51,449 nucleotides of DNA from Chloroflexota bacterium (GTDB lineage Bacteria > Chloroflexota > UBA6077 > FW602-bin22). Below, piece after piece: positions 34,721 to 37,563 of the stretch. The notes under the pieces were generated by a model. That model was not told where the DNA came from. It saw nothing but the letters and a program-made list of their open reading frames with translations, and ran no database searches. A program made the position numbers and the translations under genes. Every line of letters starts with the position of its first letter. Position 1 is the first letter of the stretch. The stretch is taken from the NCBI GenBank assembly GCA_016875715.1, contig VGOZ01000014.1, forward strand, positions 1 through 51,449, written 5' to 3'.

Positions 34721-36034
34721 CTACAACTGCCCGCGAAGAAACTCGCCCGCGTCGGCCTCGCTCAGGGCAGTCTGCTCGCCGGACACCATATCCCGCACCA
34801 GCAGTTTCCCCTGCTCGATCTCATCCGGTCCCGCGATCACCGACCATCGTACCCCTCGACGGGCAGCATCGCGCAACTGGTTTGAAAGTCTTCCCCCGGC
34901 AATCGCCAGATCGCACGCGATTCCGGCGCGGCGGAGGTTGCCCGCCACCCGCAGCGACGTGGCGAGAGTCTCCTCCGAGAAGATGGTCATCTGGACTGGC
35001 GCGACCGGTCCTTGCATCCCCGCCGGAGCCAGGCCGAGCGCCTCGATCACGTCGATGATGCGGTCCAGTCCCAGAGCGCCGCCAGTTGCCGGTGTCGGTC
35101 GCCCGGTGAAGATGCCGATGAGATCGTCGTATCGCCCGCCGCCTACGAGCGAGCCGATCGCTGGTTCGACGACGGTGACTTCGTAGATGCAGCCGGTGTA
35201 GTAGTCGAGTCCGCGGACGAGCGTGGGGTCCACCTGCAGTCTGTCCGAGGCGATCCCCAGTCCGGCGAGTGCTGATACCAGGCGGCCGAGGCTAGCGATC
35301 GCCGCGGCGGCGTCCTCGCGACCGCCCAGGGTCCGGCCGAGCTCTGGCAGGATGATCGACGGGTCGCCCCGCGGGATTAGAAATCCGAACAGTCCGTCGA
35401 TTTCCGCGCCGGAGAAGCCCCGTTCCATTAGTTCGGCCCGAACCCCCGCAGTGCCGATCTTGTCAAGCTTGTCCAGGGCGCGGAAGAGGCCCAGCGCCCG
35501 GTTCGGCGCGATTCCGAGTCGGGCGACGATCGCCTGGAGCAAACGCCGGTCGTTGAGGCGGACGACGAATCCTGGCAGCCCCAGATCGACAAGGCATGCC
35601 ATCACGGTGAAGAGCACGTCGGCGTCGGCGAGTTCTCCCGGAACCCCAACGACGTCGATGTCGCACTGGGTGAACTCGCGGTATCTGCCGCGCTGGGGGC
35701 GCTCGGCACGCCACACCGGCGCGATGTGGTACCGCTTAAATGGACGAGAGAGATCGGGGTGTGATGCGACCACTCGGGCCAGGGGAACGGTCAGATCGTA
35801 CCGTAGACCGACTTCGCGCCCGCCGCGATCGGTGAAGGCGTAGATCAGTTTGTCCGCCTCCTCGCCGTACTTGCCCTTCAGCGTCTCTGCGTATTCGAGC
35901 GCGGGAGTCTCCACTGGTTCGAAGCCGGACCTCTCGAAGTTCTCCCGGATGCGGGAGATGATCCAGGCGCGCAGCCGGCTTCGCCCGGGCAGCCAGTCAC
36001 GCATTCCCTGGAGCGTCTGAACGGGGTTCGCCAT
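34721..36034 (-). CDS. hisS: Histidyl-tRNA synthetase
   Basis: 437 aa class II synthetase. Motif 2 region YHIAPVWRAERPQRGRYREFTQCDID, histidine-binding blocks LRYDLTVPLAR and VRGLDYYTGCIYEV, motif 3 GGALGLDRII, and an anticodon-binding C-terminal domain. ATG 36034 has GGAGG 8 nt upstream. The 5' leader holds a His-rich leader peptide and an intrinsic terminator, so expression is probably controlled by attenuation on charged tRNA-His. Confidence 0.95.
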   Translation of the reverse strand: MANPVQTLQGMRDWLPGRSRLRAWIISRIRENFERSGFEPVETPALEYAETLKGKYGEEADKLIYAFTDRGGREVGLRYDLTVPLARVVASHPDLSRPFKRYHIAPVWRAERPQRGRYREFTQCDIDVVGVPGELADADVLFTVMACLVDLGLPGFVVRLNDRRLLQAIVARLGIAPNRALGLFRALDKLDKIGTAGVRAELMERGFSGAEIDGLFGFLIPRGDPSIILPELGRTLGGREDAAAAIASLGRLVSALAGLGIASDRLQVDPTLVRGLDYYTGCIYEVTVVEPAIGSLVGGGRYDDLIGIFTGRPTPATGGALGLDRIIDVIEALGLAPAGMQGPVAPVQMTIFSEETLATSLRVAGNLRRAGIACDLAIAGGRLSNQLRDAARRGVRWSVIAGPDEIEQGKLLVRDMVSGEQTALSEADAGEFLRGQL

Positions 36035-36067
36035 TGCTGCCTCCTGCGCCGCCGGAAAATCCTCGGG

Positions 36068-36098
36068 ACAAACAAAAACGGGGCGGCCGAGCCGCCCC
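36068..36098 (-). terminator. Attenuator terminator in the hisS leader
   Basis: GGGGCGGC-TCG-GCCGCCCC (36080-36098) followed on the minus strand by GTTTTTGTTTGT: a textbook intrinsic terminator 33 bp before hisS. Its upstream arm GCGGCT can instead pair with AGCCGC just after the leader-peptide stop, a candidate antiterminator. Confidence 0.85.
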
Positions 36099-36121
36099 TG
36101 GGATCGTTGCGCAGAGCGCGG

Positions 36122-36169
36122 CTAGCTGTCCGGTACGTCGTGGTGATGATGCAGGGTGCGCTCGAACAT
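36122..36169 (-). CDS. His-rich leader peptide of hisS
   Basis: 15 codons: MFERTLHHHHDVPDS, with four successive His codons (CAT CAT CAC CAC). Stalling there when charged tRNA-His is scarce should favour the antiterminator and let transcription reach hisS. The ATG lies 7 nt after TATACT, so the leader peptide probably begins at the 5' end of the RNA. Too short for routine gene calling. Confidence 0.85.
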   Translation of the reverse strand: MFERTLHHHHDVPDS

Positions 36170-36176
36170 CGACGCG

Positions 36177-36182
36177 AGTATA
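36177..36182 (-). promoter_or_regulatory. hisS leader -10 element (leaderless type)
   Basis: TATACT on the minus strand, 7 nt before the leader-peptide ATG. Confidence 0.65.
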
Positions 36183-36196
36183 GAGCGGTGCCCTGC

Positions 36197-36202
36197 TACG
36201 AT
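36197..36202 (+). promoter_or_regulatory. hisD -10 element (leaderless type)
   Basis: TACGAT, 8 nt before GTG 36211. Only 14 bp separate it from the opposing hisS -10, so the two promoters share DNA and could interfere or be co-regulated. Confidence 0.5.
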
Positions 36203-36210
36203 GCCGGCGG

Positions 36211-37563
36211 GTGAAGATGCGGATCATCGCCGACCTCGATGTCGCACGATCGACCATCCTACGGCGCGGCGGGCAACCCGAGGACTCGGAGGGAGGCCAG
36301 GCTGCGCGGGAGGCGAACCGGCGCGTCTGGCGCGAACCGCTCACCATCGCCGAGGTGGTCGACCGCATCCTGCGGGATGTCGCGTCCGAGGGCGACACTG
36401 CGCTCCGCCGGATCGCCGCGCGAGTCGATGGGTTTCAGGCCGAAGAGTTCGCTGTCCCCGTCGATATCGTGGGTGCCGCGAGGGCGGCGGTTCCCCGGAA
36501 GACCGTACACGCCCTCGAGCTGGCGGCGGAGAGGATCCGCTGGTTTCACGAGCGACATGTGCCGCGTGGCTGGGAGATCCGCGATGAGACGGGCGTCTAC
36601 GGCCAGGTCGTCACGCCGATCGAGCGTGTCGGACTTCTCGTGCCGGGAGGGCGCGCGACCTATCCGTCGACGGTGCTGATGCTCGCCATCCCCGCCCGCG
36701 TGTGCGGATGTCGTGAGGTGGTGGTGTGCTCGCCGCCGGGGCCAGAGGGTCGTCCGTCACCGGTCATTCTCGCCGCCGCGGCGATCGCGGGTGTCGATCG
36801 CGTATTCGCGCTGGGTGGCGCCCAGGCCGTGGCGGCCCTGGCGTATGGCACCGCATCGGTTCCTCGGGTCGACAAGATTCTCGGGCCTGGGAACGCCTAC
36901 GTCGCGGAGGCGAAGCGTCGGGTGTTCGGCACGGTCGGCATCGATCAGATCGCCGGGCCGACCGAGACGCTGATCATCGCGGATGATTCCCCCGACCCGT
37001 CGATCGTCGCGGCGGACGTGCTCGCTCAGGCCGAACACGATCCCATGGCGGCGGCCATCGTCATCGCCCTCGGCGAGAATGCCGCGGCCGCCATCGCCGC
37101 CGCCATCGCCACTGCCATCGAAAGCGCACCGCGTCGATCCATCCTGGAAGCCTCGCTGGCGCACAACGGTGGGGTCATCGTCGCTCCGTCGATCGACGTG
37201 GCGATGGATCTGGCGAACGCGTACGCGCCGGAGCATCTCGCTCTGCTCGTCCGCGATCCTTGGAGGTACGTTCCTCTCGTCCGTCACGCGGGTGGCGTGT
37301 TCGTTGGCGAACCATCCATCGAGGCAATCGGAGACTACGTCGCGGGGCCGAGCCACGTGATGCCGACGGGAGGCACGGCCCGCTTCTCCTCGCCCATCAC
37401 CTGCCACGATTTCGTGAAGATCACGAGCCTGTTTGCGATCGCGGAGACGGGCGTGGCGCGGTTGGGACCGGCGGCGGCCGATCTCGCTCGGGCCGAGGGT
37501 CTCGAGAACCATGCACGCGCGATCGAGGCGCGCGACAGGGAGAAGGAGCATGTCGGTGTCTAG
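36211..37563 (+). CDS. hisD: Histidinol dehydrogenase
   Basis: 450 aa. Oxidises histidinol to histidine in two NAD-dependent steps with Zn. Blocks: [63 protein letters not shown], and the Zn/substrate region [21 protein letters not shown] 36211 follows a -10 by 8 nt; ATG 36217 is an alternative. A short Ala/Ile repeat ([13 protein letters not shown]) sits near residue 290. Confidence 0.95.

Follow-up and report, generated by a model that had tools for sequence, protein, structure and literature searches.

Attenuators with runs of histidine codons in their leader peptides are known for the his operon of several Firmicutes (PMC9413887). His leader peptides have also been published for bacilli, at hisS* and at hisZ (Naville and Gautheret, 2010, PMC2965389). 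In Streptomyces, leaderless leader peptides occur at leuS, leuA, trpE and other genes (PMC8079986). Leaderless polycysteine small ORFs are described as attenuators in mycobacteria (Canestrari, 2020, as cited in PMC9094748 and PMC13236596), and candidates for them had first been put forward in PMC4633059. The window, that is, the whole stretch of 51,449 nucleotides analysed here, from a Chloroflexota bacterium, carries upstream of hisS on the minus strand a short element that, judged from its sequence, is very likely (probability of about 85%) a ribosome-mediated transcription attenuator of hisS responding to the supply of histidyl-tRNA. A histidine attenuator of hisS had been proposed in an earlier note made from the letters of this DNA, and the proposal is supported by the finding that the leader and the terminator are kept in a relative of the same family and are otherwise unique in the sequence scanned.

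The presumed regulated gene, hisS (34721..36034, minus strand), encodes a histidine–tRNA ligase of 437 aa, which scores 367 bits against NCBIfam TIGR00442 (cut-off 286.75). Assignment of this gene to hisZ was rejected, since the product lies above the cut-off of TIGR00442 and below that of the hisZ model. The residue repeated in the leader and the gene that it would control concern the same amino acid. The divergent gene hisD (36211..37563, plus strand), which is followed by hisB, is apparently leaderless, with TACGAT at 36197-36202 lying 8 nt ahead of its GTG at 36211, and the hisD-hisB operon is outside the control of the hisS leader. Two promoters of leaderless appearance, one for the hisS leader and the other for hisD, thus lie back to back. 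The leaderless appearance of hisD is shared by the family relative and by some order-mates of family f6. A second hisS, with aspS behind it, is present in the same assembly on a 3-kb contig (G000:C155:1-2541). It is 34% identical to the window hisS, and its best match in the class is about 50%. It may be a contamination or a true second copy, and the window copy would then perhaps not be the sole hisS.

All parts of the element lie on the minus strand. As to the promoter claimed upstream of hisS, a -10 hexamer, TATACT, is present at 36177..36182, but a -35 hexamer is not recognisable and no -10/-35 pair of the full sigma-70 type ahead of the leader passes the promoter scan. The ATG of the leader ORF (36169-36167) follows TATACT by 7 nt, as the earlier note had stated, and this gap is within the 6 to 9 nt used as the criterion for a leaderless mRNA. 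The ORF (36122..36169) encodes a peptide of 15 residues, MFERTLHHHHDVPDS, ends with TAG at 36124-36122 and contains four consecutive His codons, CAT CAT CAC CAC (36140..36151), which are the proposed stall site; all this is read directly from the letters. Shortly 5' of the His codons is candidate region 1, GAGCGC (36158..36163), which was assigned from the sequence and the centroid fold and is complementary to GCGCTC at 36119-36114. Candidate region 2, AGCCGCGCTC (36114..36123), which was assigned from the folds, overlaps the stop codon; its AGCCGC could pair with the 5' arm of the terminator and its GCGCTC with region 1. At a distance of 23 nt from the stop codon, the terminator scan finds the strong intrinsic terminator that had been claimed ahead of hisS, a GC hairpin of 8 bp, GGGGCGGC-TCG-GCCGCCCC (36080..36098), which would comprise regions 3 and 4, with the T-tract GTTTTTGTTT (36070..36079) behind it. 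The leader RNA of about 100 nt is mainly taken up by the ORF and the terminator. A Shine-Dalgarno sequence of hisS, AGGAGG (36040..36045), lies 5 nt ahead of its ATG at 36034.

The element would act as follows. RNA polymerase presumably starts at or beside the A of the leader ATG, and a ribosome would load on the bare 5' end of the RNA and translate the leader peptide with its four His codons. When His-tRNA is ample, the ribosome would reach the stop codon and cover region 2. With region 2 thus withheld from the terminator 5' arm, the hairpin would form and transcription would end ahead of hisS. When charged His-tRNA is scarce, because histidine is low or HisRS insufficient, the ribosome would stall on the His codons, over or near region 1, which would leave region 2 to pair with the terminator 5' arm, and in the absence of the terminator hisS would be transcribed.

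The earlier note had regarded a leaderless start as an unusual set-up for attenuation. This no longer holds, since a -10 hexamer at leaderless spacing is common in the genome. In a survey of TANNNT hexamers with at least four matches to TATAAT in 451 kb of the window genome, 41 were located 6 to 9 nt ahead of the 733 candidate starts, as compared with about 2 per position elsewhere. About a tenth of the genes of the window genome thus look leaderless by this measure; leaderless genes have been put at about 5% in some Chloroflexi (Zheng et al., 2011, PMC3160421). As -10 hexamers pile up at this distance genome-wide, a leaderless leader ORF can be taken as normal for the organism, and there are precedents for leaderless leaders in attenuation (PMC8079986, PMC7298713). 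Leaderless initiation, in which the ribosome loads at the first base, would be compatible with attenuation and may even suit it, because translation can begin once the RNA emerges.

The family was represented in the comparison by one relative genome, Chloroflexi bacterium FW602_bin.22 (G001, loci L007 and L037), which belongs to a second genus and whose hisS product is 57% identical to that of the window. Upstream of this hisS, TAGAAT is followed after 8 nt by ATG, a leader peptide MNSRARRAHCHTHSRHEEPAG with 4 His in 21 residues, a stop codon, a terminator and a T-tract, and hisD is again divergent. The hairpin is GGGGCGGC-TCG-GCCGCCC; the hairpin sequence GGGCGGCTCGGCCGCCC is identical in the two genomes and occurs once in each, only at hisS. 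The last His codon is separated from the stop codon by 5 codons in both, and the stop codon from the terminator by 23 nt in the window vs 21 nt in the relative. The earlier expectation that related genomes have the same leader is thus realised in the sole family relative compared, where the His codons and the terminator are kept, but not in the order-mates (families f2-f8), which have no such leader upstream of hisS. In some of these, f6 for example, hisS follows TATAAT with a short untranslated stretch between them. In the class, 28 hisS loci were compared, among them a second view of the family relative as well as the order-mates, and the leader is found in the relative only; 27 further hisS loci of the phylum have no His leader. 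The absence from the order-mates points to a local invention, and on the sequences compared the hisS leader is confined to this lineage, where it is conserved between two genera. In two Armatimonadetes MAGs (L041 and L095), long GC-rich hairpins with no His leader lie between TATAAT and hisS, and these possibly represent another type of leader control.

Similar leaders came up in Patescibacteria when named genomes were scanned with the hisS family; ahead of hisS, these bacteria have a small ORF encoding HHH and a terminator. In one order of Microgenomates, 71 distinct regions upstream of hisS were collected (loci L098-L134 and L135-L174), and 22 of them (e.g. L098, L101, L103, L110 and L120) contain a leaderless small ORF and a terminator, defined as an ATG small ORF 5 to 10 nt after a -10 hexamer and a terminator behind it; six of the 22 are seeds picked for having the leader, so that the fair count is 16/65. 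All 22 leaders have at least 2 His residues, which are adjacent in 20 and mostly form runs of HH to HHHH, as in MSNNSTQPVAAHHHHA, MQKTIAQLLVAHHHPD and MLLSNATTQVHHHTLL. The 5' arm of the terminator is complementary to sequence that surrounds or follows the leader stop codon, and this putative antiterminator pairing exceeds that of shuffled sequences (Fisher p 2.5e-16 over the 22, with kinship ignored). The complementarity is kept in differing sequences, such as AGTGTGGGT/ACCCGCACT and AAGGGGATG/AATCCCC. Two other synthetase genes of the same order serve as a test of specificity. FF or FFFF leaders with a terminator, such as MKTNSVTSRFFFFTQQ, MKNITKMTNNNFFKFTQR and MTIKKNSANSSFFSHC, are found upstream of pheS (L227, L228, L241, L243 and L248), and WW leaders with a terminator, MDMTNTYQQIKFSWWRHSK and MTFLNNYDQILLWWHYFKCKGSAWLH, in 2 of 30 regions upstream of trpS (L338 and L342). 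The leader residue follows the synthetase gene, as attenuation predicts. In L104 (G070), whose hisS is 83% identical to that of its close relative L098, the promoter and the terminator are kept and the leader ORF is lost, which is possibly a recent decay of the attenuator.

Leaderless leader-peptide attenuation of synthetase genes (His-hisS, Phe-pheS and Trp-trpS) is thus probably a mode of regulation common to the present Chloroflexota family and to many Patescibacteria (Microgenomates). A transfer of the leader from Patescibacteria was considered and seems unlikely, because the closest matches of the window hisS lie in its own order (46-57% identity, as compared with about 38-42% to Patescibacteria).

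One objection to the attenuator is that the His-rich ORF is coincidental and that the hairpin does no more than terminate transcription in the ordinary way or dampen it constitutively. Terminators do occur elsewhere in this genome. A scan of both strands of 1.22 Mb (36%) of it for terminators with a small ORF 8-80 nt upstream yielded 100 terminators and 92 small-ORF cases, 25 of them with ATG, and the fold of the whole leader is no better than that of shuffled sequences. On the other hand, the combination of a -10 hexamer at leaderless spacing, an ATG small ORF and a terminator occurs once in the 1.22 Mb, at the hisS leader. In 216 kb scanned of the family relative, with 31 terminators, it also occurs once, again upstream of hisS, so that the element recurs in another genus with its position and geometry kept. 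A run of four His among 14 codons is expected by chance at about 7e-7 to 7e-6, given His codon frequencies of 1.6-2.8%. Furthermore, no other gene lies between the promoter and the hairpin that would need termination. A coincidence is therefore highly improbable. Slightly less probable still is control of hisS by a T-box, in which the leader binds tRNA, or by HisRS itself through binding to its own leader. For hisS, T-boxes are the form of control known best, as described for bacilli (PMC2965389), but Rfam covariance models, including those for the T-box and the His operon leader, give no match in the window at gathering thresholds and none in the leader at a relaxed threshold, and most of the leader of about 100 nt is ORF and terminator.

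A more serious question concerns the helix between regions 2 and 3. The earlier note had named AGCCGC and GCGGCT as a candidate antiterminator. AGCCGC (36123-36118) is indeed complementary to GCGGCT (36095-36090), and the pairing of 6 bp can be extended to about 11 bp, but its strength is within the range of dinucleotide shuffles when the spacer and the terminator arm are compared for best pairing (p 0.40 in the window and 0.71 in the family relative), since the whole region is GC-rich in both, and the pairing segments are not the same in the two genomes. Folding of the stalled and unstalled states had been suggested as a check. In a constrained fold with the ribosome on the His codons, AGCCGC.GCUCUG is available to CAGGG.GCGGCU until the 3' arm has been made, and with the ribosome at the stop codon the AGCCGC pairing is blocked; the whole leader, however, resembles its shuffles (z -0.03). 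Neither the pairing, as a proof of the antiterminator at the window locus, nor the global fold, as evidence, was accepted. The His leader might then control hisS in another manner, with the stalled or coupled ribosome itself hindering the terminator or pushing the polymerase through it, or with the leader acting through translation coupling or Rho. Such control would agree with the conservation of the leader, the His codons and the terminator beside a pairing that exceeds chance in neither genome, and with several published leaderless leaders that have no clear terminator (PMC8079986). However, the strong terminator lies 21-23 nt past the stop codon, out of reach of a ribosome that has stalled at the His codons, and pairing of region 2 with region 3 is strong in the independent leaders of Patescibacteria. 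Control without this helix is hence unlikely, and attenuation through alternative pairing is preferred, the antiterminator step at the window hisS being plausible.

The attenuator, as read here, would extend leader-peptide attenuation of aminoacyl-tRNA synthetase genes to Chloroflexota. The pattern across Patescibacteria is a more surprising result than the window locus. These bacteria form a large group that is hardly culturable and whose regulation is almost unknown, and the same logic there gives testable predictions of which codon goes with which gene; if true, it would be the first control of the leaderless leader-peptide type described in them. In the open-access literature, searches for attenuation in Patescibacteria and for a leader of hisS in Chloroflexi yielded no publication.

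Among the known systems, the attenuator of the enterobacterial and B. cereus group his operon likewise has consecutive His codons, a terminator and an antiterminator, of which the window has a candidate, but it controls biosynthesis genes and not hisS (PMC9413887). The Bacillus hisS* and hisZ leaders resemble the window element in that a hisS paralogue is preceded by a terminator and by a small ORF with consecutive His codons, whereas they belong to Firmicutes, have no sequence relation shown to the present element, and are described without mention of a leaderless start in the accessible part of that report (PMC2965389). At LeuL2/leuS of Streptomyces lividans, the RNA starts at the leader start codon and a Rho-independent terminator precedes a synthetase gene, as proposed here, although the amino acid is leucine, the gene is different and the organism is an actinobacterium (PMC8079986). 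The attenuator RNA of Sinorhizobium meliloti trpL similarly begins with the ATG of a leader ORF of 14 aa, but it belongs to a tryptophan biosynthesis operon in Alphaproteobacteria (PMC7298713). The mycobacterial polycysteine ORFs are also leaderless and are reported to sense the supply of an amino acid through a run of its codon, the amino acid being cysteine. Collectively, the principle is already known; what is new is the combination of a leaderless start, His codons and hisS, its occurrence in Chloroflexota, and the Patescibacteria set.
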